From the NCBI RefSeq assembly GCF_032854445.1, contig NC_088307.1, positions 6,460,017 to 6,524,016 of the forward strand: a stretch of 64,000 bases of DNA, in the 5' to 3' direction. Positions within the stretch are counted from its first letter, which is position 1, and the number at the start of each line of letters is the position of its first letter. Positions 15,822 through 50,814 of the stretch are shown piece by piece. The notes under the pieces are model-generated. The model did not search any database and had not been told where the DNA came from. It was given only the letters and a program-made list of their open reading frames with translations. The DNA is from Liolophura sinensis (taxonomy: Eukaryota > Mollusca > Polyplacophora > Chitonida > Chitonidae). The position numbers and the translations under genes were made by a program.

Positions 15822-16185
15822 ACCGGCCCGGATAGCACAGTTGGTAGAGCGTCCGCTTTGGGACCCGTAGATCCAGGATCAATCCTTGATCGAGTCACAC
15901 TTAAGACTTTAGAAGTTGTAACTTCCTCGCTTGGCGTTCAGCATGAAGGGGATAGTGCAACGACTTGTTGACCCGTATCAGTATAATGGCTTGGGCGGTG
16001 CGGCTTACTTGCCTTCGGTAAGTCGTCTCAGTGAAGCAGCACTTGATAAAGGAGCGGTGGAAATCCATCCTGCAGCAAGGAGGCACATTACACATACATG
16101 CACCTTAAGCATTCCTTCGTCGTCATATGACTGAAAAATTGTTGATTACGATGTTAAACCCAAAGCACTCGCTCACTCACTCTTC
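15822..16185 (+). mobile_element. SINE family B (tRNA-headed, CACTC tail)
   Basis: The head resembles a tRNA (gcccggatagcacagttggtagagcg with a gatcaatcc box-B-like site). A body of about 250 bp follows, ending atgactgaaaaattgttga, then cgatgttaaacccaaagc and the tail ctcgctcactcactc. This architecture is common among mollusc SINEs. It is distinct from family A in both head and tail. Confidence 0.75.
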
Positions 16186-29569: not shown

Positions 29570-29604
29570 GAGGAACTAGTTCAGATGGTAGATCGATCGC
29601 TTAG
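29570..29604 (+). pseudogene. 5' half of tRNA-Ala(AGC), cut by LINE copy A
   Basis: 35 bases match the first half of the intact AGC gene at 29 positions and stop at cgcttag, inside the anticodon loop. The LINE follows at once. The same half precedes every LINE copy: 37146-37180, 46469-46503, 51766-51800, 58527-58561 and 63824-63858. Confidence 0.8.
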
Positions 29605-29890
29605 ATTAGGGAAGTCAGTGCTGACAGTCGAGGTGATCGGACGTGTTTACAGCATAGTCCGGAGCATAACATTGGTTGTTGTTGTAGTTCTGCTGAATAA
29701 TTGCAACTGGGAGTTCCTGGTTTTTTCCAGGAGCCACGATGATCACACCCGGGGGCTGTGGGCCACAAGGAAGGGGAAGAAAGTACTAAAAGGAATTTTC
29801 ACTTATTGTTGATATTGGAGACACTGCGAAAATTTCTGCCGAGAAAGTGATTCGAGTCGTGGAGGAGGTGTGTGGACATGAACGCCTTAC

Positions 29891-30151
29891 AGGGGCCTCC
29901 GTGGCTCAGTCGGTTAGCGCGCTAGCGCAGCGTAATGACCCAGAAGCCTCTCATCAATGCGGTCGCTGTGAGTTCAAGACCAGCTCATGCTGCCTTCCTC
30001 TCCGGCCGTACGTGGGAAGGTCTTCCAGCAACCTGCGGATGGTCGTGGGTTTCCCCCGGGCCCTGCCCGGTTTCCGCCCACCATAATGCTGGCCGCCGTC
30101 GTATAAGTGAAATATTCTTGAGTATGGCGTAAAACACCAAAAAAAAAAAAA
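29891..30151 (+). mobile_element. SINE family A, full length with target duplication
   Basis: Complete 261-bp copy: tRNA-like head (ggggcctccgtggctcagtc, ggttagcgcgctagcg), central domain and A tail. The 13-bp target duplication atgaacgccttac lies at 29878-29890 and 30152-30164. The other LINE copies have the uninterrupted site, so this insertion is private to copy A. The A tail is pure rather than AAAT-rich, consistent with a young copy. Confidence 0.92.
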
Positions 30152-30820
30152 ATGAACGCCTTACTCGTCTGTGTACCTAAAGGAGCTGAAAAATACGAGC
30201 TAACACTAGCAGACAAAGCATCTAGTGATTTGCTGGGTGATGGACGTGAAATTGACGGTCAGTTCTGTGCGTGTACGGGTGTGACACAGAGAGTTCTTGT
30301 CGTGTCGTTTTTACATCAATCTGCATATGTGGATAAAGATGAAATATTGAAGAAACTGGAGGAATTTGGCGTAGAAAACTTTTCAGGTAATAAAAGAAGG
30401 TTTTATCCTGGCACCAAAGAGAATGACGGCACAAGGTACCCTCTACCATACGCCTCGAAAGTTTCATCTGGAGACAATGCGGATTTTTTCAGAGTTGTTC
30501 ACGATAATGAGAAGAAAGTGTGTTCATTGTGTTTGGCAAAGGACCATATATTTCGTCAGTGCCCGGACTTTAGGTGCTAAACATGCGTAGAGCAAGGACA
30601 TGTAGCCCGTGCATGCCATGCGGACAGATCTAATGGGTGTCAGCAATATGGGAGGAAGTGCTATTGTTTATTGTGTGTTCAAAGGACTATAGCTGTGACA
30701 CGAACTCCGGACTTTACATGTGAGCGCTGTGGTCTCGAATAATGCGAGTGTACAGAGACGGAAAGCCTTCAGTCAGTGTCCCCTTCGACTGCCAACCTAA
30801 AGTCACAGTGGCGTGGACCA
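30152..30820 (+). pseudogene. LINE ORF1 remnant, copy A
   Basis: ORF1 of Tx1/L1-like type, an RNA-binding chaperone of the retrotransposition complex. Conserved blocks are RVLVVSFLHQSAYVDKDEI, KRRFYPGT, NDGTRY, FFRVVHDNEKKVCSLC and CCHC knuckles CSLCLAKDHIFRQC and, past a TAA at 30578-30580, CVEQGHVARAC. Of all copies this one keeps the block before the knuckles and the first knuckle in one frame. The SINE insertion lies just upstream, so the original start is uncertain. Confidence 0.75.
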
Positions 30821-30917
30821 TAATGAAAGCGTGCAAATGCAGGGGAGTGGTAGGCTAGACCAGAGCATGCTCGACAGTACCCACAAGCAATGGTACGGTA
30901 GATGAATGTAAAAACAG

Positions 30918-33900
30918 GTGATTTTCAAATTGACCGATAGAAGTCAGCAAACAGACGGGTGGTCAGTTGTCACGAACAAGAGGACTCGAGATGTGCGAAT
31001 ACAAGGAATAAAAAGTCCACAGAATGGAAAGTCAGTTGGCCGGAATATCGACGGTAAAACTACTGTGGGGGCGGCCTCAGCCATAGGAGAAATGACGCAA
31101 GACACAGGTGAGAACGAGCGCACCTTGGTTTGCTCGCAGTCTTCTGAGAGTTTGTTACAGCCTTCTACATCTGCAAGGCGACGAATAAACCCGTGCCGAA
31201 TTTGTCTTGTGCAAGAAGAAATGTGCCTAACAACAAGCCGAACAATAGAGCGCAATAAAAAAACTTTCTTTCTCATAATGGTGCTGATTACCTTACTCAA
31301 CTGTAATGGTTTACGAGCTGAAAATAAGTTCGAACGCCTGTATAACGGACTGAATGGAGGTATAATTTGCCTGCAAGAAACTCACTTCGATGATGAAATC
31401 GTAAGTAAAGTACAACGGTCAATTGAAGGCAAAGTCTACGCCAGTAACTCGCTAACTGCACAAAAGGGGTTGCCATTATTATTACCAATTCCCTTATAGA
31501 CAAAGTTATGGGTGTAACATCTGATAATGAGGGACGATTAATTCACTTGACTGGAGATAGAAGACAAAATGATAGATATGGTACATGTTTACGTTCCTAA
31601 TAGTATAGCAGAGCGATATGATTTTTTAACGAAGTGGATACATTTCTTACAGGGAATTTTAAAATATTCGTTCGGGATCGCAGTGTGGTTTTCCAGTCAA
31701 GAGATAGGGCATCTAAGCGCCTCGAAAGTGGTAAGTCCAGGGGGGTAATTACAAGAGTTCATGTCAAGGCATAATCTAGTTGATATTTGGCGTGAAAGAA
31801 AACCCGGAAGAGTAATGCTTACGTAGCACAGAACTGTAGAAAATGCTTTGCGCCAGAGCCGCATGGATCACGTTAATCTCCAGGGAAATTGTTGTCAGTT
31901 GTAAACCTGTATATGTGAATAATACGTCCTTTAGTCACCATGCTGTACTCTGTACTATATGAAGTGTGATTTTTCACCGGTTGAAATCGGTCCTGGTCTG
32001 TATTGCTTTAACGATAGGTTACTGGAAGATGATGAATTTTGAGTGTATATGAACAAGAAAACCGTAATGTGGCAATTCTAAGATCAAAAGCTCGATATCC
32101 TCATGAAAGTGATAAAAACAGCCCTGTTAGATGTGGTCTATAAGTACTACTCCAGTTTGTTTAAGAAAGAAGATATTGACGAAGGGGCTTCCAAAAAAGT
32201 TTTGTCATATGTTGATGTCTCCATAGAAAAGAATGATCAAGAGAAATCTTTCTATATGGTGTCACACCAGTGTTCACTTGAAGTGTTGTTACATTTTGGC
32301 TTTGGAGAGAATTTCCGCAAATGGATATCCATCTTTTATACAGATATGGGGGAGCGGGCGCTCTGAAGTCATATCACCACATACTTTTCAATTGGACAGT
32401 GAATTAGGCTAGGGTGTCCGATTTCTTCCTTATTGTATGTACTTAGTGTTGAGTCCTTAGGATCTATGATTACAGCGGAGAATGTTATGAAGGACTTAGA
32501 AATCCCGGGCTCCCCAGAAAAGCGTCTCTTATTCCAACCTGCAGATGACACAGCGGTGACCGTAAATGAGCGAGAGTGTGTTAAATATGTTATAGACAAT
32601 GTGAGTTTGTATTTATTTATTTATTTCATTGTTATTTTACGCCGTACTCAAGAATATTTCACTTATACGACGGCGGCCAGCATTATGGTGGGTGGAAACC
32701 GGGCAGAGCCCGGGGGAAACCCACGACCATCCGCAGGTTGAGAGGAAGCCAGCATGAGCTGGACTTAAGCTCACAGCGACCACATTGGTGGGAGGCTCCT
32801 GGGTCATTACGCTGCGCTAGCGCGCTAACCAACTGATCCCCGGAGGCCCCTTGTGATAAGGCATGTTTGTATGATAAGGCGTCTAACGCAAAAGTAAATA
32901 TTGATAAGTGAGAGATATTACCTATGTGTACAGACTGCCAGGATCGTACAATTGAGGGCATTCCCGTGGTTAATCACAGTATCTGTGTACTAGGTTTTTA
33001 GATCGGGCCTGATTAAACAGCATATTATGTAGAAAACTGGAACAAAGGCATAAACAGAGTCAAGTCTATGCTACACCTATGGGAACAAACGGGACTATCG
33101 CTAAATGGGAGAGTCGCAGTTATTACAACTTTATTGATATCTAGATTGTGGTATTGTATGGCTGTTTGTGCCGGTTCCAGAGAAATGTATTAATGATCTT
33201 ACACATGAAGCCGTATGTGTAGATTTTCTGTGGTGTCAGCGGTGACATCTGATAGCACATGGAGTCGTTATTAACTCTTTTAAAAAACGGTGGCTTAAAT
33301 ATGCCAGACAAGGCAACCAAGGTTTCGCCTCAAAATGTTGGGTCGTTTTTTTAATCAGAATTATCGAGCAGTGTTGAAAGTGTTTTTTTCCCCCATATTT
33401 TCTGTCAAAATGGTATTCCTTGTCAGAGACCTATTTTATAAATAATTGCTTGATGTCTTACCAGAGTGTTACAAGGAGTTCTTTTTACCATGGACAAAAG
33501 TATGACTTGAACTGTGTATTGAGAGCCGGGAACAGGTACCCAGCCAACTGATATTTTTAAATGCCAATATGAAGCTTAATGGTAGGCGTTTGTTTTATAA
33601 ACTGTTTATCAAATCCAAACTGCTTTGTGTGCGGTATTTTTTATATGAATGCATTCCCGGATTCCTGCCAGAGGTAGCTATCAGAAAAATTGTGTCAGAG
33701 ACATTCCCTGAGGCTGACCTTGCACAGATAAACACCATACACAGAATGATTAAAGAGACTATTCCACCGCAATGATTCACAATAGTAGATGACAGTGGTA
33801 CTGCTTGTACATCAAGTAGAAGAAGGGACGTAGTACGCCAGTTTCAGTCTTGAAAAACAAGCATTTTTATAAGCTACTTTCATAGAAACGTAGGTAGAGT

Positions 33901-34324
33901 CTGCCTCAGTTCGACACTGGTTAAGGGTTTTAGTAACATTGAAGTCGATCATTTATGGAGTTGTATTTTATTACCTGGAAAATGGCCTGATTGTACTCTG
34001 CTGGATTGTAAAATTTGTCATAATTCTGTGTATACAATAGAGATGCTTTTCAAAATAGGGTATGTGGATAGCTATTTGTGTCTTCTTTGTGAAACGCATA
34101 TGGAATAAGTTTTTCACTTAATGATCCATTGTCCTGTGTTAACCCAATTTATAAAATATGTTGGTGATATTACTGAAACTTTGCTCAGACAAATGCCTAT
34201 GAGTGTCAGTTTTGAATGTATGTTGCTCTTTGGGTACCCATTGCGACATGCAAAACTGTGTTTTCATTTTCTAAACATTGTCCAAAGCTCTGCTGGACTA
34301 GCTATATGGAAACAGAGGGTTTAG
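30918..34324 (+). pseudogene. LINE ORF2 remnant, copy A
   Basis: A Ser/Thr-rich linker leads into the apurinic-endonuclease start (LNCNGLRAENKFERLYNGL, then ICLQETHFDD). Later fragments are YVPNSIAERYDF, LVDIWRERKPGR and an SRMDHV-type endonuclease end. RT remnants follow (FGFGENFRKWI, FQPADDTAVTV), and the C-terminal region ends HFLNIVQSSAGLAIWKQR. The family nicks target DNA and reverse transcribes LINE RNA. Many frame breaks, a SINE insertion and internal deletions leave it non-functional. Confidence 0.75.
32613..32851 (-). mobile_element. SINE family A in LINE copy A ORF2
   Basis: Minus-strand copy with the (AAAT)n tail at the left and the tRNA-like head at the right (gcgctagcgcgctaaccaac). 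It matches the SINE at 41934-42168 in copy B at the same LINE position, so it predates the A/B split. The central part lacks the box-B-side gcagacc segment, as in B. Confidence 0.85.
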
Positions 34325-34741
34325 TGACTAGCTAACAAGCGGATCGTGTGTGTTGAAAAAAATTGTCAAAGCTCTTCTTTACAGTAAAGTTAAAGAGGCA
34401 CACGTTTACCATAACAACAAGAGTAAGATATCCAACTTAACTGCAAAATATATCTAATACAAACCATTTTTTAAAATAAATGACACAGATGATGTTCAGG
34501 TCTTTGGATAAATACAAATAGTATGTATACCCAGGCAAGTGTGTTAATATATATGCTTGATCTATGTGTATAATTTTAGTGTGTATATTTTGATAGATCC
34601 CTCTTCCATGGCTATATCTGTGATATTCTTATTTTTTTAACCATTGCCACGATTTTGGATATGCACAAACCTGTATTTCTGTACGAACAGAAATACTGAT
34701 TTTTTCAAAAGAAAAAAATATAATAAAGAGTGCTAGATTAA

Positions 34742-34771
34742 CATGCAAGGGGTACCCGGACCGGGTTGTCC
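34742..34771 (+). pseudogene. 3' half of tRNA-Ala flanking LINE copy A
   Basis: catgcaaggggtacccgg followed by accgggttgtcc matches the second half of a tRNA-Ala gene with a short gap. The next bases (aaacaactttt...gcaatta) are the spacer that follows UGC-type genes, not AGC-type. Same arrangement after the other copies: 44071-44099, 50610-50638, 56130-56157 and 62668-62696. Confidence 0.7.
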
Positions 34772-34947
34772 AAACAACTTTTCCAGCAATTAGTGCAAAG
34801 TATAGTGTTGAATCCTAGTTTCAGCTTTTAGAAAACAAAAGGAATTTTATTTTGAAATTTCACAGGCCAATAGATTTTCGCTGATACCTGTGTTTTTAGC
34901 AGATATGAGGCTAGATGTTGTGCTTAATAGACTACATTAACCAACAA

Positions 34948-35020
34948 GGGGAGCTAACTCAGATGGTAGAGCGCTCCCTTAGCATACCTCCCTTAGCGGT
35001 ATCTGATGCCCGGGTTCTCG
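34948..35020 (+). pseudogene. tRNA-Ala(AGC)-like relic
   Basis: Keeps the 5' half (ggggagctaactcagatgg) and TTAGCAT, but the 3' side of the anticodon stem and the T arm are rearranged (acctcccttagcggtatctg). It cannot form a cloverleaf. Confidence 0.75.
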
Positions 35021-35164
35021 GGTAGGTAAAGTTTTTCTGATCGTTTTCCACACCGCTTCAAGTGAGTTTATCCGTCCATCCTATACACCAAATATTTAAG
35101 AAAGATTATTTCTTAACAACCACAAGTTTCGTAGTGATGGGAAAATATGTGGAAAGCTTTTCAT

Positions 35165-35205
35165 TGGGTGGGGGTGGGGGTGGGGGTGGGGGTGGGGGTG
35201 GGGGC
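35165..35205 (+). repeat. (GGGGGT)n tract
   Basis: About six GGGGGT repeats on the plus strand, able to form G-quadruplexes. It occupies the position where a UGC tRNA 5' end would be expected. Same tract at 44494-44535 and 56552-56593; shorter at about 51038-51058 and 63096-63116. Confidence 0.85.
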
Positions 35206-35264
35206 TGCAGTTAGCGCAAAGTCCACTCTGGAAAGTAATTTCAGCTTTTAGAAAACATAAGAGG

Positions 35265-35324
35265 TTTACATGGTAGAGCGCGCTTTGCATGCCAGCGGTA
35301 CTGGGATCGATGCCCGGCCTTTCC
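35265..35324 (+). pseudogene. tRNA-Ala(UGC)-like relic, 5' end missing
   Basis: Starts at tacatggtagagcg and keeps a TTTGCAT loop and the T arm (gggatcgatgcccgg). The acceptor 5' strand and part of the D arm are gone. Confidence 0.75.
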
Positions 35325-35517
35325 AAACAACTTTTACTGCAATTAGCGCACGGTTCACATTTATATAGTAGTTTTAGGCTTTAGATAAAATAAGGAAGTT
35401 TGTTGTTTTTAATATCACAGACCAACAAATATATATATTTTTTTTCACTCAGAACTTTCTTATCAGCAGGCCTTAGGCTAGAATGTTGTCCTTAATACAT
35501 ACCACATAAAACAACAC

Positions 35518-35589
35518 GGGGAGCTAGCTCAGATGGTAGAGCGCTCGCTTAGCATGCGAGAGGTACCGGGATCGATGCCCGGGTTCTCC
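35518..35589 (+). tRNA. tRNA-Ala(AGC), intact
   Basis: 72 nt with all four stems paired: acceptor GGGGAGC/GTTCTCC (with G-U pairs), D stem GCTC/GAGC, anticodon stem CTCGC/GCGAG around TTAGCAT (anticodon AGC), T stem CCGGG/CCCGG with loop ATCGATG. The A at T-loop position 54 also occurs in a known animal tRNA-Ala(AGC) subtype. A TTTTT Pol III terminator lies about 14 nt downstream. CCA is not encoded, as expected in a eukaryote. Confidence 0.9.
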
Positions 35590-35779
35590 AAGTAGTACAT
35601 TATTTTTGATCGTGTTGCACACCGTTGCAAGAAAGTCTACTTGTCCTAACCGTTCACCAAATGCAATGTTTATAATGACTGAAAATCCAGGTACATAGGT
35701 GTGCAGCACCACATCCTATTTTCCTTAACAGCCACAAGTTCCGTCTTAGTCATATTGGGATACGTGGAAAGCTCTTGAT

Positions 35780-35851
35780 GGGGGGCTAGCTCACATGGTA
35801 GAACGCTCGCTTTGCATGCGAGAGGTACCGGGATCGATGCCCGGGCTCTCC
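35780..35851 (+). tRNA. tRNA-Ala(UGC), one D-stem mismatch
   Basis: 72 nt, acceptor GGGGGGC/GCTCTCC, anticodon stem CTCGC/GCGAG around TTTGCAT (anticodon UGC), intact T arm. The D stem reads GCTC/GAAC, one mismatch, so activity is uncertain. A TTTT run lies within 45 nt downstream. Confidence 0.75.
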
Positions 35852-36026
35852 AAACAACATTTACTGCAATAAGCTCAAAGTTCTCTTTTGAATAGTAGTT
35901 TCAGCTTGTAGAAACATAAGCAAGTTTATTTTGAAATTTCACCCGCCAATGTATTTTCGCTGATATCTTTGTTTTCAGCAGGTCTTAGGCTAGCTGTTGT
36001 TCTTAATACATACTACATTAACAAAC

Positions 36027-36260
36027 AAGGGGAGCCACAAGGAGACAGATGAGGCTGCGAGTGACGCCCCTTTGGCCTTGCTAGGCATCCCTCCCAGCTG
36101 CCGGCATAGACAGGTCCACATTTTGATGCTCAACCTATGTCAAGATTTTTATGGCCTCTTTCTAACAGGCTGGGCCAGGCATGCACCAAAGCTTATTGGC
36201 CACGGAATGTTTGGCACTGAGCTACAGCGCTAAACTTTAACATTGTCGCATATTGGAAAT
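36027..36260 (+). other. AGC tRNA start replaced by unidentified sequence
   Basis: An AGC spacer leads to ggggagcca at about 36030, then about 215 bp of GC-richer unrelated sequence (from caaggagacagatgaggctg) before spacer 2 resumes near 36240. No tRNA 3' part remains. The same insert recurs near 45357-45590 and 57415-57648. Origin unknown. Confidence 0.55.
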
Positions 36261-36380
36261 AATGGGGATATGGGGCCATTTTGCTGAACAGCCACAAGTT
36301 TCGTCGTACTGATATGAAGAGATTTTAAAAGGTTCTCATGGTGTTTAAGGGGAGGGGTGGGTGGGTGGGGGGGGGGGGGC

Positions 36381-36447
36381 GTCGTAGTTTACATGGTAGA
36401 GCGCGCTTTGGATGCAAGCGGTACCGGGATCGATACCCGGCCTTTCC
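36381..36447 (+). pseudogene. tRNA-Ala(UGC)-like relic
   Basis: Preceded by a poly-G run. Keeps tttacatggtagagcgcgc and the T arm. The loop reads TTTGGAT and the anticodon stem is unpaired. Confidence 0.7.
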
Positions 36448-36634
36448 AAACAACTTTTTTTGGAATAAGCTCAAAGTTCACTTTTAGATAGTAGTTTCAA
36501 GCTTTACAAAACATAAGAGGGTTTTTTAGATTCGCAGGCCAAGCAATATATATATAATTTTCCACTCATTTTTTTTCTCTTAGCAGGCCTTAGGCTAGAA
36601 GGTTGTCCTTAATGTACACTACATATCCCAGCAA

Positions 36635-36706
36635 GGGGAGCTAGCTCAAATGGTAGATCGCTCGCTTAGCATGCGAGATGTACCGGGATCGATGCCCGGG
36701 TTCTCC
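36635..36706 (+). tRNA. tRNA-Ala(AGC), slightly degenerate
   Basis: Cloverleaf with anticodon AGC. The D stem is GCTC/GATC (one mismatch) and the variable loop is ATGTA. Acceptor, anticodon and T stems pair. Possibly a decaying gene. Confidence 0.65.
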
Positions 36707-36896
36707 AAGTAGTACACTGTTTTTGATCGTGTTGCACACCGTTTCAAGAAAGCCTACTCGTCCAACCTATTCACCAATTGTGATGTTTATAATTACTGAG
36801 AAGCCAGGTACATAAGCATGCAGCACCACATCCTATTTTCCTTAACAGCCACAAGTTTCGTCTTAGTCATATGGGGATACGTGGAAAATTCTTAAT

Positions 36897-36968
36897 TGGG
36901 GTCTAGCTCACATGGTAGAGCGCTCGCTTTGCATGCGAGAGGTACCGGGATCGATGCCCGGGCTCTCC
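36897..36968 (+). pseudogene. tRNA-Ala(UGC) with damaged acceptor stem
   Basis: D, anticodon (TTTGCAT) and T arms are intact. The 5' acceptor strand reads TGGGGTC and fails to pair at two positions with GCTCTCC. Confidence 0.65.
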
Positions 36969-37145
36969 AAACAACATTTACTGCAATAAGCTCAAATTTC
37001 TCTTTTAAATAGTAGTTTCAGCTTGTAGAAACATAAGCAAGTTTATTTTGAAATTTCACCGGCCAATATATTTTCGCTGATACCTGTCTTATCAGCAGGT
37101 GTTAGCCTAGATGTTCTTCTGAATATATACCACTTCAGCCAACAC

Positions 37146-37180
37146 GAGGAACCAGTTCAGATGGTAGATCGATCGCTTAG
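37146..37180 (+). pseudogene. 5' half of tRNA-Ala(AGC), cut by LINE copy B
   Basis: Same half-gene and same break point (after cgcttag) as at copy A, with the AGC-type spacer on its left. Confidence 0.8.
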
Positions 37181-37451
37181 ATTAGGGAAGTCAGTGCTGA
37201 CAGCCGAGGTGATCGGACGTGTTTGCAGCATAGTCCGGAGCATAACATTGGTTGTTGTTGTAGTTCTGCTGAATAATTGCAACTGGGGGTTCCTGGTTTT
37301 TCCAGGAGCCACGATGATCACACCCGGGGGCTGTGGGCCACGAGGAAGGGGAAGAAAGTATTAAAAGGAATTTTCACTTATTGTTAATATTGGAGACCAC
37401 GAAAATTTCTGCCGAGAAAGTGATTCGAGTCGTGGAGCAGGTGTGTTGGAG

Positions 37452-38124
37452 ATGAACGCCTTACTCGTCTGTGTACTAAAGGAGCTGAAAAATACGAGCT
37501 AACACTAGTAGACAAAGCATCTAGTGATTTGCTGTGTGATGGACGTGAAATTGACGGTCAGTTCTGTGGGTGTACGGGTGTGACACAGAGAGTTCTTGTC
37601 GTGTCGTTTTTACATCAATCTGCATATGTGGATAAAGATGAAATAGTGAAGAAACTGGAGGAATTTGGCGTAGAAATCTTTTCAGATAATAAAAGAAGGT
37701 TTTATCCTGGCACCAAAGAGAATGACGGCACAAGATACCATCTCTACCATACGCCTCGAAAGTTTCATCTGGAGACAATGCGGATTTTTTCAGAGTTGTT
37801 CACAATAATGAGAAGAAAGTGTGTTCATTGTGTTTGGCAAAGGACCATATATTTCGTCAGTGCCCGGACCTTAGGTGCTACACATGCGTAGAGCAAGGAC
37901 ATGTAGCCCGTGCATGTCATGCGGACAGATCTAATGGGTGTCACCAATATGGGAGGAAGTGCTATTGTTTATTGTGTGTTCAAAGGACTATAGCTGTGAC
38001 ACGAACTCCGGACTTTGCGTGTGAGCGCTGTGGTCTGGAATACTGCGAGTGTGCAGAGACGGAAAGCCTTCAGTCAGTGCCCCCTTCGACTGCCAACCTA
38101 AAGTCACAGTGGCGTGGACCATAA
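37452..38124 (+). pseudogene. LINE ORF1 remnant, copy B
   Basis: The N-terminal part (from MNALL at 37452) is shifted at the start relative to copies C-E. The middle block lies at 37529-37891 and the knuckle block at 37819-38124 in another frame, because of two extra bases near 37740 compared with copy A. Both CCHC knuckles and a Cys-rich tail (CLLCVQRT, CERCGLEYCEC) are present. Confidence 0.7.
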
Positions 38125-38911
38125 TCAAAGCGTGCAAATGGAAAGGGAGGGGAGTGGTAGGATAGACCAGAGCATGCTCGACAGTACCCCCAAGCAATGG
38201 TACGGTAGATGAATGTAAAAACAGGTGATTTTCAAATTGACCGATAGAAGCCAGCAAACAGACGGGTGGTCAGTTGTCACGAACAAGAGGACTCGAGATG
38301 TGCGACTACAAGGAATAAGAAGTCCACAGGATGGAAAGTCAGTTGGCCGGAATATCGACGGTGAAACTACTGTGGGGGCGGCCTCAGCCATAGGAGAAAT
38401 GACGCAAGACACAGGTGAGAACGAGCGCACCTTGGTTTGCTCGCAGTCTTCTGAGAGTTTGTTACAGCCTTCTACATCTGCAAGGCGACGAATAAACCTG
38501 TGCCGAATTTGTCTTGTGCAAGAAGAAATGTGCCAAACAACAAGCCGAACAATAGAGCGCAATAAAATAACTTTCTTTCTCATAATGGTGCTGATTACCT
38601 TACTCAACTGTAATGGTTTACGAGCGGAAAATCAATTCGAACGCCTGTATAACGGAGTGAATGGAGATATAATTTGCCTGCAAGAAACTCACTTCGATGA
38701 TGAAATCGTAAGTAAAGTACAACGGTCAATGGAAGGCAAAGTCTACGCCAGTAACTCGCTAACTGCACAAAAGGGGTTGCCGTTATTATTACCAATTTCC
38801 TTATAGACAAAGTTATGGGTGTAACATCTGATAATGAGGGACGATTAATTCACTTGACTTTGGAGATAGAAGACAAAATGATAGATATGGTACATGTTTA
38901 CGTTCCTAATA

Positions 38912-40457
38912 AACTACCACGCAAAAGAAAGGTTTCACCGTATTTTTTGTCATAAAAAAAATAAAAGCGCGGTTCCGGATTTGATTCTAAGCAGGACATG
39001 GTGTATGACTGCATCGTTTCCTCTACCAGAACGCATCGTCACGAACGCAGCAATTGGAATTGTGAAATTGCGATAACATGCAAAACGTCCTTTTGAGGCA
39101 TGGCTCGTGATGCACGTGCGGTAATGTTGCATAAATACTCTTGCTCGAAAGAGCAGACATTCAGTGACCAAAAAAACACCAACAGTATGCCAAGTCTTAC
39201 GGAAGCGCAACGAGACCAGGCTATCGGTATGTCCACCATGGGAGTCTCGCAACGTCACATTGCAAGAACGTTCAACTGCAGCCAAACCACCATTAGGAGG
39301 TTGTTGATACGCTATCAGCAGACAGGCCAGACCCAAGACAGACCAAGATCGGGAAGACCGACGGTAACAACTGCGGCTGAAGATCGCTACATCCGGCAGA
39401 TCCACCTCCGAAACCGATTCGTCACGGCGACGTCAACAGCGGGGACGGCACTATGCCATGTCATCAGCCCCAGGACAACACTGCGTCGTCTTCGTTCAGC
39501 TGGTTTACGACCTTACCGCCCCTTCCGTAGGATGGCCTTGACCCTTTTACACCGTCAACGCAGATTGCGATGGGCACGTATTGTACGTCGGTGGCAGCGA
39601 CGTGACTGGGCGAGAGTGCTGTTTACAGACGAGAGCAGGTTCTGTCTATTCAGGAACGATGGCAGAGTTCGAGTTTTCCGACGAAGAGGCGAGCGTCTCG
39701 CGCCAAACTGCGTAAGAGAGGTTTATCCGTTTGGAGGCGGAGGCGTCATGGTTTGGGGAGGGATTTGTGACCAAATGAAGACGCAGCTGGTTATTGTGCG
39801 AGGTAATCTGACTGGCCAGCGATACCTTGATGAGGTACTGAGACCTGTCGTCGTTCCTTTCCTTTAATGACAGCCAAAAGGATCGATCTTGCAACACGAC
39901 AACACAAGACCTCACATTGCCCGCATTTTTACAGACGAGACCGCAAACGTCATCGTGTTGCCCTGGCCAGCCAACTCACCAGACATGAACCCCATTGACC
40001 ATCTCTGGGATCACCTTGACCACCGTTTGAGACAGTTGGTGCCTCCTCCAACTAACCAACAGGAACTTGAGCAAGCTCTGTTAAACCTATGGAACGTTAC
40101 CCCAGCTGACGTCATCCGGCGACGGACGACGTCAATACGGAGGCGTGTGCTTGCATGCATTGATGCCCAGGGTGGCCACACTCGCTACTGATGACTGTAG
40201 TCCTTCATTTCTGTGGATACTGTGACTTTACATGCACTTGCCAGTTAACTTTACATTTGTGTAATTTTTTCTTCTCACCCCTTGTCTCTTTCATTGTGTT
40301 TTGTGGCCAATTGAAAGCCAATATTTTAAAGCCTTTTTGAGAGAATATTTCACAATGATTCCTGTTTATAAACCAATCTTCTTAATTCTTATATCTGACT
40401 TTGTTTTTGTTTTATGGGCTCAAGAAGTGGGTGAAACCATTCTTTTGCCTGGTAGTT
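38912..40457 (+). mobile_element. Tc1/mariner transposon inside LINE copy B
   Basis: 1,546 bp flanked by TA duplications (38910-38911 and 40458-40459). Terminal inverted repeats begin aactaccacgcaaaag on the left and aactaccaggcaaaag on the right, and extend about 28 bp with few mismatches. The empty site (cctaatagtatagcag) is preserved in copies A and D, so the insertion is younger than the duplication that made B. Confidence 0.93.
39187..40191 (+). pseudogene. Tc1/mariner transposase, broken
   Basis: Starts near MPSLTEAQRDQAIGM. An HTH DNA-binding region follows (GVSQRHIARTFNCSQTTIRR, GRP hook RPRSGRPTV), then the catalytic region with FTDESRF (first D), GGGGVMVWGGI, LQHDNTRPH (second D) and SPDMNPIDHLW. 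The third acidic position is D where most Tc1 relatives have E, and the second-to-third spacing is 32 residues rather than 34. Two consecutive stops (39865-39870) split the frame. It would cut and paste the element; this copy cannot. An upstream ATG at 39100 is in frame but probably not the true start. Confidence 0.85.
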
Positions 40458-40944
40458 TAGTATAGCAGAGCGATATGATTTTTTAACGAAGTGGATACAT
40501 TTCTTACAGGGAATTTTAAAATATTCGTTCGGGATCGCAGTGTGGTTTTCCAGTCAAGAGATAGGGCATCTAAGCGCCTCGAAAATGGTAAGTCCAGGGG
40601 GCAATTACAAGAGTTCATGTCAAGGCATAATCTAGTTGATATTTGGCGTGAAAGAAAACCCGGAAGAGTAATGCTTACGTAGCACGGAACTGTTGAAAAT
40701 GCTTTGCGCCAGAGCCGCATAGATCACGTTAATCTCCAGGGAAATTGTGTCAGTTGTAAACCTGTATATATGAATAATACGTCCTTTAGTCACCATGCTG
40801 TACTCTGTACTATATGAAGTGTGATTTTTCACCGGTTGAAATCGGTCCTGGTCTGTATTGTTTTAACGATAGGTTACTGGAAGATGATGAATTTTGCACC
40901 AAGGTGAGACGATGTATAAATGAGCAGTTAACATGTCCATTATA

Positions 40945-41089
40945 TTTTCTTTCTTTATTTGACTGGTGTTTTACGCCGTACTCAAGAATATTTCACTTAT
41001 ACGACGGCGCACCTGTACTGTTTACCAGCATTGTGGTGGGAGCAAACCGGGCAGGGCCCGGGGAAAACCCACGACCAGCCACAGGTTGC
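40945..41089 (-). mobile_element. SINE family A (S1) in LINE copy B
   Basis: Minus-strand, head-truncated copy with a small internal change (cacctgtactgtttaccagc). Flanked by tgtccattatat on the left (40933-40944) and tgtccgttatat on the right (41090-41101), a 12-bp target duplication with one mismatch. Confidence 0.85.
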
Positions 41090-41933
41090 TGTCCGTTATA
41101 TAAGAACGATATATGTGTATGGTGGGATAATCTCAAATGCAAACTGAAAAGTTTGGCTCAGAAGTTTGGTGTAAAAAGGAGTAATGAGCCGTACTGTGAA
41201 ATTAATAAGATACAAAGAGAGTTAGAGAGTGAGTATCGAAGAGCAAGTGTAATCGATAATTATAATCATGATCGTATTTTTGAATTGGAACATAATTTGA
41301 GTGTATATGAACAAGAAAACTGTAATGTGGTACTTTTAAGACAAAAAGGTCGATATCCTCATGAAAGTGATAAAAACAGTAAGTATTTTTTAAATGGCCA
41401 GCATGATTGACGATAATGGAGAAAGCGTGACTTCAATAACAGCCCTGTTAGATGTGGTCTATAAGTACTACTCCAGTTTGTTTAAGAAAGAAGATATTGA
41501 CGAAGGGGCTTCCAAAAAAGTTTTGTCATATGTTGATGTCTCCATAGAAAAGAATGATCAAGAGAAATCTTTCTATATGGTGTCACACCAGTGTTCACAT
41601 GAAGTGTTGTTACATTTTGGCTTTGGAGAGAATTTCCGCAAATGGATATTCATCTTTTATACAGATATGGGGGAGCGGGCGCTCTGAAGTCATATCACCA
41701 CATACTTTTCAATTGGACAGTGAATTAGGCTAGGGTGTCCGAGTTCTTCCTTATTGTATGTATTTAGTGTAGAGTTCTTAGGATCTATGATTACAGCGGA
41801 GAATGTTATCAAGGGCTTAGAAATCCCGGGCTCCCCAGAAAAGTGTCTCTTATTCCAACCTGCAGATGACACAGCGGTGACCGTAAATGAGCGAGAGTGT
41901 GTTAAATATGTTATAGACACTGTGAGTTTGTAT

Positions 41934-42168
41934 TTATTTATTTCATTGTTATTTTACGCCGTACTCAAAAATATTTCACTTATACGACGGCGGCCAGCAT
42001 TATGGTGGGTGGAAACCGGGCAGAGCCCGGGGGAAACCCACGACCATCCGCAGGTTGAGAGGAAGCCACGATGAGCTGGACTTGAGCTCACAGCGACCGC
42101 ATTGGTGGGAGGCTCCTGGGTCATTACGCTGCGCTAGCGCGCTAACCAACTGATCCCCGGAGGCCCCT
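41934..42168 (-). mobile_element. SINE family A (S2) in LINE copy B
   Basis: Minus-strand copy with tail at left and tRNA-like head at right. Perfect 13-bp target duplication tgtgagtttgtat at 41921-41933 and 42169-42181. It cuts the RT region of ORF2. Confidence 0.9.
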
Positions 42169-44275
42169 TGTGAGTTTGTATGATAAGGCGTCTAAGGCAA
42201 AAGTAAATATTGATAAGTGACAGATATTACCTATGTGTACAGACTGCCAGGATCGTACAATTGAGGGCATTCCCGTGGTTAATCACAGTATCTGTGTTCT
42301 AGGTTTTCAGATCGGGCCTGATTAAACAGCATGTTATGCAGAAAACTGGAACAAAGGCATAAACAAAGTCAAGTCTATGCTACACCTATGGGAACAAACG
42401 GGACTATCGCTAAATGGGAGAGTCGCAGTTATTGCAACTTTATTGATATCTAGATTGTGGTATTGAATGGCTGTTTGTGCCGGCTCCAAAGAAATGTATT
42501 AATGATCTTGAAGCCGTATGTGTAGATTTTCTGTGGTCTCAGCGGTGACATCTGATAGCACATGGAGTTGTTGTTAACTCTTTTAAAAAACGGTGGCTTA
42601 AATATGCCAGACAAGGCAACCAAGGTTTCGCCTCAAAATGTTGGGTCGTTTTTTTTAATCAGAATTATCGAGCAGTGTTGAAAGTGTTTTTTTCCCCCAT
42701 ATTTTCTGTCAAAATGGTATTCCTTGTCAGAGACCTATTTTATAAATAATTGCTTGATGTCTTACCAGAGTGTTACAAGGAGTTCTTTTTACCATGGACA
42801 AAAGTATGACTTGAACTGTGTATTGAGAGCCGGGAACAGGTACCCAGCCAACTGATATTTTCAAATGCCAATATGAAGCTTAATGGTAGGCGTTTGTTTT
42901 ATAAACTGTTTATCAAATCCAAGCTGCTTTGTGTGTGGGATTTTTTTATATGAATGCATTCCCGGATTCCTGCCAGAGGTAGCTATCAGAAAAATTGTGT
43001 CAGAGACATTCCCTGAGGCTGACCTTGCACAGATAAACACCATACACAGAATGATTAAAGAGACTATTCCACCGCGATGATTCACAATAGTAGATGACAA
43101 TGGTACTGCTTGCACATCAAGTAGAAATACTTGCCGCGACCCAAAACTAAATATTAAGGGACGTAGTACGCCAGTTTCAGTCTTGAAAAACAAGCAATTT
43201 ATAAGCTACTTTCATAGAAACGTAGGTAGAGTCTGCCTCAGTTCGGCACTGGTTAAGGGTTTTAGTAACATTGAAGTCGATCATTTATGGAGTTGTATTT
43301 TATTACCTGGAAAGGGGCCTGATTGTACTCTGCTGGATTGTAAAATTTGTCATAATTCTGTGTATACAATAAAGATGCTTTACAAAATAGGGTATGTGGA
43401 TAGCTGTCTGTATCTTCTTTGTTAAACGCATATGGAATAAGTTTTTCACTTAATGATCCATTGTCCTGTGTTAACCCAATTTATAAAATATGTTGGTGAT
43501 ATTACTGAAACTTTGCTCAGACAAATGCCTGTGAGTGTCAGTTTCGAATGTATGTTGCTCTTTGGGTACCCATTGCGACATGCAAAACGGTGTTTTCATT
43601 TTCTAAACATTGTCCAAAGCTCTGCTGGACTAGCTATATGGAAACAGAGGGTTTTGTGACTAGCTAACAAGCGGATCCTGTGTGTTGAAAAAAATTGTCA
43701 AAGCTCTTCTTTACAGTAAAGTTAAAGAGGCACACGTTTACCATAAGAAGAGTAAGATATCCAATTTAATTGCAAAATATAACTAATACAAACAATTTTT
43801 TAAAATAAATGACACAGATGATGTTCAGGTCTTTTTATAAATACATATAGTATGTATACCCAGGCAAGTGTGGTAATATATATGCTTGATCTATGTGTAT
43901 AATTTTGGTGTGTATATTTTGATATATCCCTCTTCCATGGCTATATCTGTGATATTCTTATTTTTTTAACCATTGCCACGATTTTGGATATGCACAATCC
44001 TGTATTTCTGTACGAACAGAAATACTGATTTTTTCAAAAGAAAAAAAAATAATAAAGAGTGCTAGATTAACATGCGGGGGTACCCGGACCGGGTTGTCCA
44101 AACAACTTTTCCAGCAATTAGTGCAAAGTATAGTGTTGAATCCTAGTTTCAGCTTTTAGAAAACAAAAGGAATTTTATTTTGAAATTTCACAGGCCAATA
44201 GATTTTCGCTGATACCTGTGTTTTTAGCAGATATGAGGCTAGATGTTGTGCTTAATAGACTACATTAACCAACAA

Positions 44276-44348
44276 GGGGAGCTAACTCAGATGGTAGAGC
44301 GCTCCCTTAGCATACCTCCCTTAGCGGTATCTGATGCCCGGGTTCTCG
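44276..44348 (+). pseudogene. tRNA-Ala(AGC)-like relic
   Basis: Same damaged form as at 34948-35020: intact 5' half, rearranged anticodon stem and T arm. Confidence 0.75.
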
Positions 44349-44592
44349 GGTAGGTAAAGTTTTTCTGATCGTTTTCCACACCGCTTCAAGTGAGTTTATC
44401 CGTCCATCCTATACACCAAATATTTAAGAAAGATTATTTCTTAACAACCACAAGTTTCGTAGTGATGGGAAAATATGTGGAAAGCTTTTCATTGGGTGGG
44501 GGTGGGGGTGGGGGTGGGGGTGGGGGTGGGGGCTGCAGTTAGCGCAAAGTCCACTCTGGAAAGTAATTTCAGCTTTTAGAAAACATAAGAGG

Positions 44593-44652
44593 TTTACATG
44601 GTAGAGCGCGCTTTGCATGCCAGCGGTACTGGGATCGATGCCCGGCCTTTCC
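44593..44652 (+). pseudogene. tRNA-Ala(UGC)-like relic, 5' end missing
   Basis: Counterpart of 35265-35324, after a (GGGGGT)n tract at 44494-44535. Confidence 0.75.
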
Positions 44653-44845
44653 AAACAACTTTTACTGCAATTAGCGCACGGTTCACATTTATATAGTAGT
44701 TTTAGGCTTTAGATAAAATAAGGAAGTTTGTTGTTTTTAGAATCACAGGCCAACCAATATATATATATTTTTTCACTCAGAACTTTCTTATCAGCAGGCC
44801 TTAGGCTAGAATGTTGTCCTTAATACATACCACATAACACAACAA

Positions 44846-44917
44846 GGGGAGCTAGCTCAGATGGTAGAGCGCTCGCTTAGCATGCGAGAGGTACCGGGAT
44901 CGATGCCCGGGTTCTCC
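44846..44917 (+). tRNA. tRNA-Ala(AGC), intact
   Basis: Identical over 72 nt to the gene at 35518. All stems pair, the anticodon is AGC, and a TTTTT run follows about 14 nt downstream. Confidence 0.9.
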
Positions 44918-45107
44918 AAGTAGTACATTATTTTTGATCGTGTTGCACACCGTTGCAAGAAAGCCTACTTGTCCAAACCGTTCACCAAATGCAATGTTTA
45001 TAATGACTGAAAATCCAGGTACATAGGTGTGCAGCACCACATCCTATTTTCCTTAACAGCCACAAGTTCCGTCTTAGTCATATTGGGATACGTGGAAAGC
45101 TCTTGAT

Positions 45108-45179
45108 GGGGGGCTAGCTCACATGGTAGAACGCTCGCTTTGCATGCGAGAGGCACTGGGATCGATGCCCGGGCTCTCC
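45108..45179 (+). tRNA. tRNA-Ala(UGC), slightly degenerate
   Basis: Anticodon UGC in a paired stem. The D stem has the GAAC mismatch seen at 35780, and the T stem has a G-U pair (ctggg). Activity is uncertain. Confidence 0.65.
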
Positions 45180-45701
45180 AAACAACATTTACTGCAATGA
45201 GCTCAAAGTTCTCTTTTGAATAGTAGTTTCAGCTTGTAGAAACATAAACAAGTTTATTTTGAAATTTCACCGGCCAATGTATTTTCGCTGATATCTTTGT
45301 TTTCAGCAGGTCTTAGGCTAGATGTTGTTCTTAATACATACTACATTAACAAACAAGCGGAGCCACAAGGAGACAGGTAGTGATGAGGCTGCGAGTGACG
45401 CCCCTTGGCCTTGCTAGGCATCCGTGCCAGCTGCCGGCATAGACAGGTCCACATTTTGATGCTCAACCTATGTCAAGATTTTTATGGCCTCTTTTTAACA
45501 GGCTGGGCCAGGCATGCACCAAAGCTTATTGGCCACGGAATGTTTGGGACTGAGCTACAGCGCTAAACTTTAACATTGTCGCATACTGGAAATAATGGGG
45601 ATATGGGGCCATTTTGCTGAACAGCCACAAGTTTCGTCGTACTGATATGAAGAGATTTTAAAAGGTTCTCATGGTGTTTAAGGGGAGAGGGGGGGGGGGG
45701 G

Positions 45702-45769
45702 CGTCGTAGTTTACATGGTAGAGCGCGCTTTGGATGCAAGCGGTACCGGGATCGATGCCCGGCCTTTCC
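45702..45769 (+). pseudogene. tRNA-Ala(UGC)-like relic
   Basis: Same form as at 36381-36447 (TTTGGAT loop), preceded by a 13-base G run. Confidence 0.7.
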
Positions 45770-45957
45770 AAACAACTTTTATTGGAATAAGCTCAAAGTT
45801 CACTTTTAGATAGTAGTTTCAAGCTTTAGAAAACATAAGAGGGTTTTTCTAGATTTGCAGGCCAAGCAATATATATATAATTTTCCACTCATTCTTTTTC
45901 TCTTAGCAGGCCTTAGGCTAGAAGGTTGTCCTTAATGTACACTACATACCCCAGCAA

Positions 45958-46029
45958 GTGGAGCTAGCTCAAATGGTAGAGCGCTCGCTTAGCATGCGAG
46001 ATGTACCGGTATCGATGCCCGGGTTCTTC
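45958..46029 (+). pseudogene. tRNA-Ala(AGC), damaged
   Basis: Anticodon stem and AGC loop are intact. The acceptor pair 2-71 (GTGGAGC/GTTCTTC) and the T-stem pair next to the loop (ccggt) are mismatched. Confidence 0.65.
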
Positions 46030-46219
46030 AAGTAGTACACTGTTTTTGATCGTGTTGCACACCGTTTCAAGAAAGCCTACTCGTCCAAACTATTCACCAA
46101 TTGTGATGTTTATAATTACTGAGAAGCCAGGTACTTCAGCGTGCACCACCACATCCTATTTTCCTTAACAGCCACAAGTTTCGTCTTAGTCATATGGGGA
46201 TACGTAGAAAATTCTTCAT

Positions 46220-46291
46220 GGGGGGCTAGCTCACATGGTAGAGCGCTCGCTTTGCATGCGAGAGGTACCGGGATCGATGCCCGGGCTCTCC
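46220..46291 (+). tRNA. tRNA-Ala(UGC), intact
   Basis: 72 nt with all stems paired: GGGGGGC/GCTCTCC, GCTC/GAGC, CTCGC/GCGAG around TTTGCAT, CCGGG/CCCGG. This is the best UGC gene in the first half of the array. Confidence 0.9.
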
Positions 46292-46468
46292 AAACAACAT
46301 TTACTGCAATAAGCTCAAATTTCTCTTTTAAATAGTAGTTTCAGCTTTTAGAAACATAAGCAAGTTTATTTTGAAATTTCACCGGCAAATATATTTTCGC
46401 TGATAGCTGTCTTATCAGCAGGTGTTAGCCTAGATGTTCTTCTGAATATATACCACTTCAGCCAACAC

Positions 46469-46503
46469 GAGGAACCAGTTCAGATGGTAGATCGATCGCT
46501 TAG
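46469..46503 (+). pseudogene. 5' half of tRNA-Ala(AGC), cut by LINE copy C
   Basis: Same break point as in copies A and B. Confidence 0.8.
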
Positions 46504-46767
46504 ATTAGGGAAGTCAGTGCTGACAGCCGAGGTGATCGGACGTGTTTACAGCATAGTCCGGAGCATAACATTGGTTGTTGTTGTAGTTCTGCTGAATAAT
46601 TGTAACTGGGGTTTCCTGGTTTTTCCAGGAGCCACGATGATCACACCCGGGGGCTATGGGCCACAAGGAAGGGGAAGAAAGTATTAAAAGGAATTTTCAC
46701 TTATTGTTGATATTGGAGACACCGCGAAAATTTCTGCCGAGAAAGTGATTCGAGTCGTGGAGGAGGT

Positions 46768-47450
46768 GTGTTGGACATGAACGCCTTACTCGTCTGTGTA
46801 CCTAAAGGAGCTGTAAAATACGAGCTAACACCAGTAGACAAAGCATCTAGTGATTTGCTGGGTGATGGACGTGAAATTGACGGTCAGTTCTGTGCGTGTA
46901 CGGGTGTGACACAGAGAGTTCTTGTCGTGTCGTTTTTACATCAATCTGCATATGTGGATAAAGATGAAATAGTGAAGAAACTGGAGGAATTTGGCGTAGA
47001 AATCTTTTCAGATAATAAAAGAAGGTTTTATCCTGGCACCAAAGAGAATGACGGCACAAGGTACCATCTCTACCATACGCCTCGAAAGTTTCATCTGGAG
47101 ACAGTGCGGATTTTTTCAGAATTGTTCACGATAATGAGCAGAAGGTGTGTTCATTGTGTTTGGCAAAGGACCATATATTTCGTCAGTGCCCAGACTTTAG
47201 GTGCTACACATGCGTAGAGCAAGGACATGTAGCCCGTGCATGCCATGCGGACAGATCTAATGGGTGTCACCAATATGGGAGGAAGTGCTATTGTTTATTG
47301 TGTGTTCAAAGGACTATAGCTGTGACACGAACTCCGGACTTTGCATGTGAGCGCTGTGGTCTGGAATACTGCGAGTGTGCAGAGCCGGAAAGCCTTCAGT
47401 CAGTGCCCCCTTCGACTGCCAACCTAAAGTCACAGTGGCGTGGACCATAA
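46768..47450 (+). pseudogene. LINE ORF1 remnant, copy C
   Basis: Runs open from 46768 to 47217. The KRRFYPGT block is in frame, but the frame leaves the knuckles after NDGTRYHLYH. The knuckles (CSLCLAKDHIFRQC, CYTCVEQGHVARAC) are open in another frame at 47145-47450. Confidence 0.72.
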
Positions 47451-47550
47451 TAAAAGAGTGCAAATGGAAAGGGAGGCGAGTGGTAGGCTAGACCAGAGCA
47501 TGCTCGACAGTACCCCCAAGCAATGGTACGGTAGATGAATGTAAAAACAG

Positions 47551-50203
47551 GTGATTTTCAAATTGACCGACGGAAGCCAGCAAACAGACGGGTGGTCAGT
47601 TGTCACGAACAAGAGGACTCGAGATGTGCGACTACAAGGAATAAGAAGTCCACAGAATGGAAAGTCAGTTGGCCGGAATATCGACGGTGAAACTACTGTG
47701 GGGGCGGCCTCAGTCATAGGAGAAATGACGCAAGACACAGGTGAGAACGAGCGCACCTTGGTTTGCTCGCAGTCTTCTGAGAGTTTGTTACAGCCTTCTA
47801 CATCTGCAAGGCGACGAACAAACCTATGCCGAATTTGTCTTGTGCAAGAAGAAATGTGCCTAACAACAAGCCGAACAATAGAGCGCAATAAAATAACTTT
47901 CTTTCTCATAATGGTGCTGATTACGTTACTCAACTGTAATGGTTTAGGAGCTGAAAATCAGTTCGAACGCCTGTATAACGGACTGAATGGAGATATAATT
48001 TGCCTGCAAGAAACTCACTTCGATGATGAAATCGTAAGTAAAGTACAACGGTCAATTGAAGGCAAAGTCTACGCCAATAGCTCGCTAACTGCACAAAAAG
48101 GGTTGCCAAATGGTAAGTCCAGGAGGCAATTACAAGAGTTCATGTCAAGGCATAATCTAGTTGATATTTGGCGTGAAAGAAAACCCGGAAGAGTAATGCT
48201 TACGTAGCACAGAACTGTTGAAAATGCTTTGCGCCAGAGCCGCATGGATCACGTTAATCTCCAGGGAAATTGTTGTCAGTTGTAAACCTGTATATATGAA
48301 TAATACATCCTTTAGTCACCATGCTGTACTCTGTACTATATGAAGTGTGATTTTTCACCGGTTGAAATCGGTCCTGGTCTGTATTGTCTTAACGATAGGT
48401 TGCTGGAAGATGATGAATTTTGCACCAAGGTGAGACGATGTATAAATGAGCAGTTAACATGTCCATTATATTTTATTTCTTTATTTGACTGGTGTTTTAC
48501 GCCGTACTCAAGAATATTTCACTTATACGACGGCGGCCAGCATTATGGTGGGTGGAAACCGGGCAGAGCCCGGGGGAAACCCACGACCATCCGCAGGTTG
48601 AGAGGAAGCCAGCATGAGCTGGACGTGAGCTCACAGCGACCGCATTGGTGGGAGGCTCCTGGGTCATTACGCTGCGCTAGCGCGCTAAACAACTGATCCC
48701 CGGAGGCCCCTTGTGAGTTTGTATGATAAGGCGTCTAAGGCAAAAGTAAATATTGATAAGTGACAGATATTACCTACGTGTACAGACTGCCAGGATCGTA
48801 CAATTGAGGGTATTCCCGTGGTTAATCACAGTATCTGTGTACTAGGTTTTCAGATCGGGCCTGATTAAACAGCATGTTATGTAGAAAACTGGAACAAAGG
48901 CATAAACAAAGTCAAGTCTATGCTACACCTATGGGAACAAACGGGACTATCGCTAAATGGGAGAGTCGCAGTTATTACAACTTTATTGATATCTAGATTG
49001 TGGTATTGAATGGCTGTTTGTGGCGGTTCCAGAGAAATGTATTAATGATCTTGAAGCCGTATGTGTAGATTTTCTGTGGTCTCAGCGGTGACATCTGATA
49101 GCACATGGAGTTGTTGTTAACTCTTTTAAAAAACGGTGGCTTAAATATGCCAGACACTGCAACCAAGGTTTCGCCTCAAAATGTTGGGTCGTTTTTTAAA
49201 TCAGAATTATTGAGCAGTGTTGAAAGAGTTTTTTCCCCCCATATTTTCTGTCAAAATGGTATTCCTTGTCAGAGACGTATTCTATAAATAATTGCTTGAT
49301 GTCTTACCAGAGAGTTACAAGGAGTTCTTTTTACCATGGACAAAAGTATGACTTGAACTGTGTATTGAGAGCCGGGAACAGGTCCCCAGCCAACTGTTAT
49401 TTTTAAATGCCAATATGAAGCTTAATGGTAGGCGTTTGTTTTATAAACTGTTTATCAAATCCAAGCTGCTTTGTGTGCGGGATTTTTTTTATATGAATGC
49501 ATTCCCGGTTTCCTGCCAGAGGTAGCTATCAGAAAAATTGTGTCAGAGACATTCCCTGAGGCTGACCTTGCACAGATAAACACCATACACAGAATGATTA
49601 AAGAGACTATTCCATCGCGATGATTCACAATAGTAGATGACAATGCTACTGCTTGTACATCAAGTAGAAATATTTGCCGCGAACCAAAACTAAATATTAA
49701 GGGACGTAGTACGCCAGTTTCAGTCTTGAAAAACAAGCAATTTTATAAGCTACTTTCATAGAAACGTAGGTAGAGTCTGCCTCAGTTCGGCACTGGTTAA
49801 GGGTTTTAGTAACATTGAAGTCGATCATTTATGGAGTTGTATTTTATTACCTGGAAAGGGGCCTGATTGTACTCTGCTGGATTGTAAAATTTGTCATAAT
49901 TCTGTGTATACAATAGAGATGCTTTTCAAAATAGGGTATGTGGATAGCTATCTGTGTCTTCTTTGTGAAACGCATATGGAATAAGTTTTTCACTTAATGA
50001 TCCATTGTCCTGTGTTAACCCAATTTATAAAATATGTTGGTGATATTACTGAAACTTTGCTCAGACAAATGCCTATGAGTGTCAGTTTTGAATGTATGTT
50101 GCTCTTTGGGTACCCATTGCGACATGCAAAACGGTGTTTTCATTTTCTAAACATTGTCCAAAGCTCTGCTGGACTAGCTATATGGAAACAGAGGGTTTTG
50201 TGA
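47551..50203 (+). pseudogene. LINE ORF2 remnant, copy C
   Basis: A 218-codon open frame (47551-48207) joins the linker and endonuclease N-terminus directly to the NLVDIWRERKPGR block across the deletion. The hybrid SINE follows, then the C-terminal fragments to WKQRVL at 50203. No RT core remains. Confidence 0.72.
48472..48711 (-). mobile_element. Hybrid SINE family A at recombination point, copy C
   Basis: The left flank is tgtccattatat (target of S1) and the right flank is tgtgagtttgtat (target of S2), so it lacks a matching target duplication. It marks unequal recombination between S1 and S2. Confidence 0.88.
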
Positions 50204-50814
50204 CTAGTTAACAAACGGATCCTATGTGTTGAAAAAAATTTTCAAAGCTCTTCTTTACAGTAAAGTTAAAGAGGCACACGTTTACCATAACAACAAGAGT
50301 AAGATATCCAACTTAACTGCAAAATATATCTAATACAAACCATTTTTTTAAATAAATGACAGGTCAGGTCTTTCGATAAATACATATAGTATGTATACCC
50401 AGGCAAGTGTGGTAATATATATGCTTGATCTATGTGTATAATTTTTGTGTGTATATTTTGATATATCCCTCTTCCATGGCTATATCTGTGATATTCTTAT
50501 TTTTTTAACCATAGCCACGATTTTAGATATACACAAACCTGTATTTCTGTACGAACAGAAATACTGATTTTTTCAAAAGAAAAAAAAATAATAAAGAGTG
50601 CTAGATTAACATGCAAGGGGTGCCGGACCGGGTTGTCCAAACAACTTTTCCAGCAATTAGTGCAAAGTATAGTGTTGAATCCTAGTTTCAGCTTTTAGAA
50701 AACAAAAGGAATTTTATTTTGAAATTTCACAGGCCAATAGATTTTCGCTGATACCTGTGTTTTTAGCAGATATGAGGCGATATGTTGTGCTTAATAGACT
50801 ACATTAACCAACAA

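Follow-up and report, generated by a model that had tools for sequence, protein, structure and literature searches.

A tandem array of tRNA-Ala genes in the chiton Liolophura sinensis is interrupted by a decayed retroelement that occurs as six copies within a 64,000-nucleotide (nt) stretch of contig NC_088307.1 (assembly GCF_032854445.1, positions 6,460,017 to 6,524,016 of the forward strand; hereafter the window). The six copies, numbered along the window, are one insertion multiplied together with the array and represent a single independent event (n = 1). The element is best read, from its sequence features, as a retrotransposon without long terminal repeats (non-LTR) of the long interspersed nuclear element (LINE) type. 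We consider it likely that one ordinary LINE insertion into one tRNA-Ala(AGC) gene was followed by decay, exchange of a spacer, and amplification of the array.

Common junctions and lesions in the tRNA-Ala array

The array is built of alternating AGC and TGC units, with the AGC gene about 262 bp ahead of the next TGC gene and some units degenerate. ARAGORN called 14 tRNA-Ala genes in the array within the window, and Rfam returned 13 tRNA matches. The 5' junction of the element, CGCTTAG/ATTAGGG, follows a tRNA-Ala(AGC) 5' part and is the same in six of six copies. At the opposite end, AGATTAA/CATGC is found in all five copies whose 3' end lies inside the window, and a tRNA-Ala 3' part stands after it.

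Lesions in the flanks are shared as well. GAGGAAC and GATCGATCG are present in the 5' parts of all six copies, and an identical T-arm deletion marks the 3' parts of five of five. Flank homology among the copies extends through the array on both sides, as seen when the element was compared with the window by blastn. Divergence ranges from 0 to 3.1% over the ten pairs of five aligned copies; copy 6, which is cut off by the window end, was left out of this alignment. The common junctions, the flank lesions, and this low divergence therefore point to a single insertion event. The change of GAG to GAT at nt 24 is also seen in the uninterrupted AGC gene at 36635, so this lesion is not unique to the element flanks.

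Differences among the copies are few. Copies 3 and 5 show none over 4106 compared bases and lie in a repeat (43156-51942 and 55205-64000) with an offset of about 12,058 bp and 99.5% identity over 8797 aligned columns; either a recent duplication or a doubling in the assembly could account for it. Of the five aligned copies, only copy 1 carries a short interspersed nuclear element (SINE) at 29.9 kb; the other four show a 273-column gap there. The SINE sequence would fit a molluscan host. The initial annotation had named cgcttag and catgc as the junction strings, and both hold in every copy in which they could occur (6/6 and 5/5). Its caution that shared lesions might betray a single insertion was justified by the common 5' lesions, the T-arm deletion, and the low divergence. 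More generally, array amplification can make one insertion resemble many targeted ones.

Break points, layout, and identity of the element

The position of the element within the tRNA gene depends on the 15 bases that stand ahead of CATGC. This stretch, AGAGTGCTAGATTAA, agrees with tRNA nt 21-35, AGAGCGCTCGCTTAG, in exact register and at 11 of 15 positions in five of five copies, and an nhmmer tRNA alignment took in the same bases. No shuffle of the 30 bases before CATGC reached the observed score (0/100,000). Among 336 registers along one AGC unit, the one at nt 35 was the best, with a score of 7 against 5 for the next. When the run was scored backward from the junction, the observed value was reached at 5 of 28,900 window positions and at 0 of 17,271 A/T-rich positions. 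In copy 1, the A-rich sequence AAAAAAATATAATAA stands directly ahead of the match. The plain reading is that these bases represent a decayed 15-bp target-site duplication (TSD) behind an A-rich tail, not LINE sequence.

It would follow from the TSD reading that the LINE joins tRNA nt 21 at its 3' end and has a junction at nt 35/36, in the anticodon, solely at its 5' end. The initial annotation had placed the element exactly in the anticodon loop, with the break there at both ends. We retain the LINE-like element within a tRNA-Ala gene but not its exact placement: by the TSD, the primed end lies at nt 20/21, only the opposite end lies at nt 35/36, and the 3' tRNA part begins at nt 21 instead of nt 36 (11/15 in 5/5 copies). 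A decayed TSD can thus mask the true break point. A TSD together with a 3' tail and no LTRs is one combination expected of a LINE and is seen here; the blastn comparison of the element with the window returned no terminal repeat, only SINE pieces within a copy.

All copies, the features described within them, and the units between copies 1 and 2 lie on the plus strand. Copy 1 occupies 29570-34771, the interval to which the initial annotation referred; it starts with tRNA nt 1 and closes with the last base of the 3' part. Its tRNA-Ala(AGC) 5' part (nt 1-35) lies at 29570-29604, of which 29590-29604 (nt 21-35) forms the 5' TSD copy, canonical at 13 of 15 positions. The decayed LINE, with its A-rich tail at the end, follows at 29605-34726, the 15-bp 3' TSD copy (11/15) at 34727-34741, and the remaining tRNA-Ala 3' part, from nt 36 to about nt 72 with an internal deletion, at 34742-34771. 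Copy 2 (37146-44099) comprises a 5' part at 37146-37180, LINE sequence at 37181-44055, the TSD at 44056-44070, and a 3' part at 44071-44099. SINE sequence and a Tc1/mariner-like transposase frame (39097-40188) are inserted within it; the latter matches HTH_Tnp_Tc3_2 (E 3.2e-08) and, below the cut-off, DDE_3 (E 1.1e-4). In copy 3 (46469-50638), the corresponding intervals are 46469-46503, 46504-50594, 50595-50609, and 50610-50638; in copy 4 (51766-56157), they are 51766-51800, 51801-56114, 56115-56129, and 56130-56157; and in copy 5 (58527-62696), they are 58527-58561, 58562-62652, 62653-62667, and 62668-62696. Copy 6 (63824-64000) has its 5' part at 63824-63858, and its LINE runs past the window end.

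Alternating AGC and TGC units of tRNA-Ala, some of them degenerate, occupy the stretch between copies 1 and 2 (34772-37145). One of these, at 34948-35019, is a degenerate tRNA-Ala(AGC) in which the 3' side of the anticodon arm is replaced by a second CTCCCTTAG motif, and it has duplicates. In three places (36038-36275, 45382-45609, and 57440-57667), part of an AGC tRNA unit, from about nt 7-9 onward, is replaced by an unrelated sequence of about 238 bp. This stretch matches nothing in the window except its own duplicates and is perhaps another insertion into a tRNA gene. Elsewhere in the window, an isolated tRNA-like sequence at 15830-15882 is probably a tRNA-derived SINE head or a pseudogene.

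The coding remnants are heavily eroded. By eye, copy 1 carries an open reading frame 1 (ORF1) remnant with CCHC/zinc-knuckle residues, stops, and frameshifts at 30152-30739. The best Pfam match for ORF1 was zf-CCHC, at E 0.026 and below the cut-off, from a copy 2 piece (37726-38121). The start of ORF2 at 31278-31470 resembles, again by eye, an apurinic/apyrimidinic endonuclease (APE; LLNCNGL..LQETH). A copy 4 piece of this region (52842-53426) gave a partial, sub-cut-off match to Exo_endo_phos in Pfam (E 0.23), and no nuclease match was found in PDB for the APE-like piece. A remnant resembling a reverse transcriptase (RT; LGCPISSLLYVLSVE..FQPADD) was recognized at 32403-32610 by eye only. A C-terminal stretch of ORF2 was likewise seen by eye, and this piece matched Zn_ribbon_11 in two copies at E 0.003 and 0.0074, below the Pfam cut-off.

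Searches for relatives of the element returned little. Protein database searches yielded 67, 18, and 1 candidates, none of them inside the E-value limits of 0.01, 0.1, and 1. No relative was found in viral contigs or prokaryote genome contigs, collections that say little on animals, and sequence searches of PDB with element pieces produced weak unrelated matches or none. The exact 14-base 5'-junction pattern matched 28 viral contigs, and these hits were dismissed as chance: 0 of 28 had LINE similarity (blastn, E 1e-3), and none carried a tRNA 5' part ahead by eye.

Proposed history and rival explanations

The history proposed here would begin with one LINE-type element that entered one tRNA-Ala(AGC) gene of the tandem AGC/TGC array, in sense orientation and through ordinary target-primed reverse transcription. 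Of the two nicks, the first would have separated nt 20 from nt 21 on the bottom strand, at CTCT/ACC, a T/A step that would suit the preference of APE nucleases, and the second would have separated nt 35 from nt 36 on the top strand. Afterwards, the inserted copy would have decayed, and its 3' spacer may have been swapped for a TGC-unit spacer, the simplest route being conversion or unequal crossing-over within the matching end of the tRNA genes. Amplification of the interrupted unit, along with the adjoining units, would later have raised the number of copies to six or more.

The spacer exchange is suggested by the types of flanking DNA. The 5' flank of copy 1 belongs to an AGC unit (AGC profile, 80.3 bits; TGC profile, 12.6 bits), and its 3' spacer belongs to a TGC unit (TGC profile, 81.9 bits; AGC profile, 14.8 bits). 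The 3' sides of copies 2-5 are likewise TGC-type (76.0-78.9 vs 10.9-11.9 bits). The 3' tRNA body is AGC-like at both of the positions that separate aligned AGC from TGC genes (nt 34 A; GGGTT), and the switch to the TGC type occurs at the tRNA end, where the spacer after CCAA is TGC-type. The TGC-type spacer was probably acquired by later recombination between tRNA genes.

Several observations weigh against this history. Equally good 15-mers occur elsewhere, at 3 of 29,000 positions in window 1-29,000 and, apart from the match itself, at 1 of 5,122 in LINE copy 1, so that the TSD match is rare and not unique; the three background 15-mers include the tRNA-like sequence at 15.8 kb and a stretch of a SINE match at 5.2 kb. 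The two TSD copies are decayed, at 13/15 and 11/15 against the canonical sequence and 9/15 against each other by eye. Neither the RT families of Pfam nor the RT chains of PDB gave a match to the RT-like pieces; only weak unrelated matches appeared. LINE identity itself is drawn from motifs seen by eye, the sub-cut-off zinc-knuckle and APE matches, the tail, and the TSD. Moreover, the AGC origin of the 3' body depends on two bases, and CCC is common to the 3' parts of copies 1 and 2 and to one TGC gene, at 51517.

This CCC also speaks for a rival in which the element used two cuts in neighbouring tRNA genes, joining an AGC gene at one end and the following TGC gene at the opposite end and losing one array interval at insertion. 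The pairing of an AGC-type 5' flank with a TGC-type 3' spacer fits such cuts, as does the array phase, which is kept according to the coordinates. However, the 3' tRNA body and the duplication in it agree with the AGC type at two of two diagnostic positions, and the switch comes only at the tRNA end, which fits later recombination better; we regard the two-cut explanation as improbable. The geometry of the initial annotation, in which the element would have entered cleanly at nt 35/36 and duplicated nothing, is the least probable of those weighed here and very hard to sustain. It is suggested by the junction strings alone and gains from the similar 15-mers elsewhere, but it leaves the exact-register match in five of five copies, equalled by none of the shuffles, to coincidence.

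A further alternative is a tRNA-Ala-specific LINE family whose nicks fall at nt 20/21 (the end of the D arm) and nt 35/36 (the anticodon), so that nt 21-35 are duplicated at each insertion, with one copy surviving here. The sole independent copy in the window does sit in a tRNA-Ala gene. Multicopy small-RNA genes serve other LINEs as targets, among which excerpts of PMC3706591 name Mutsu (5S), Keno (U2), and Dewa (tRNA-Leu spacer), and the same TAGCAT of tRNA-Ala is used by the DNA transposon Dada-tA, according to passages of PMC3706591 and PMC8869645. Against this stand the single insertion (n = 1) and the composition of the array. Between copies 1 and 2, tRNA-like DNA makes up 554 of 2439 bases (23%; intervals set from ARAGORN and profile results), and a tRNA landing is therefore expected nearly one time in four once the array is struck, which is not rare. 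A TSD and an A-rich tail are also left by a non-specific LINE. Such specificity is thus unlikely, if less so than the two geometries above; the odds assigned to these rivals overlap and are not meant to sum to one. If it were real, the tRNA gene body would join the LINE targets described in the literature covered here, and a second transposon class would be placed at the Dada-tA site. A single event with an ordinary TSD is compatible with tRNA-Ala specificity and does not demonstrate it; the insertion is an ordinary one on present evidence.

Comparison with known systems

By eye, the element resembles the APE-type LINEs of the L1/Tx1 group in its two-ORF layout, CCHC-bearing ORF1, APE-like ORF2 start, RT-like remnants, C-terminal stretch, and A-rich tail. 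Compared with these LINEs, part of the RT seems to be missing. No intact RT was found, and the placement of the element within Tx1 is presumed from resemblance. L1-Tx1 elements are among the most ubiquitous LINE types in molluscs, according to the excerpted text of PMC10294476.

Among the matches listed from the open literature, as excerpted, no LINE inside tRNA-Ala or another tRNA gene body was found, and the survey of Kojima and Fujiwara (2004) appeared there only as a reference. Other cases may be in print, since the introductions of PMC8869645, PMC4640811, and PMC5035012, in the parts available, name tRNA genes among non-LTR targets in unspecified form. Several retrotransposons of amoebae and yeast insert beside tRNA genes, as stated in passages of PMC5911963. 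These include TRE5/TRE3 and NLTR-A/B of social amoebae, which are non-LTR elements associated with tRNA genes, but they insert beside the genes at set distances and not inside them. The zebrafish LINE Dewa, likened here by its description in excerpts of PMC3706591, is also found at a tRNA locus, but its target is the spacer of tRNA-Leu. Dada-tA shares the same anticodon-loop bases of tRNA-Ala with the present insertion, but it is a DDE transposase element with a 6-7-bp TSD and an unrelated mechanism, as described in parts of PMC3706591 and PMC8869645.

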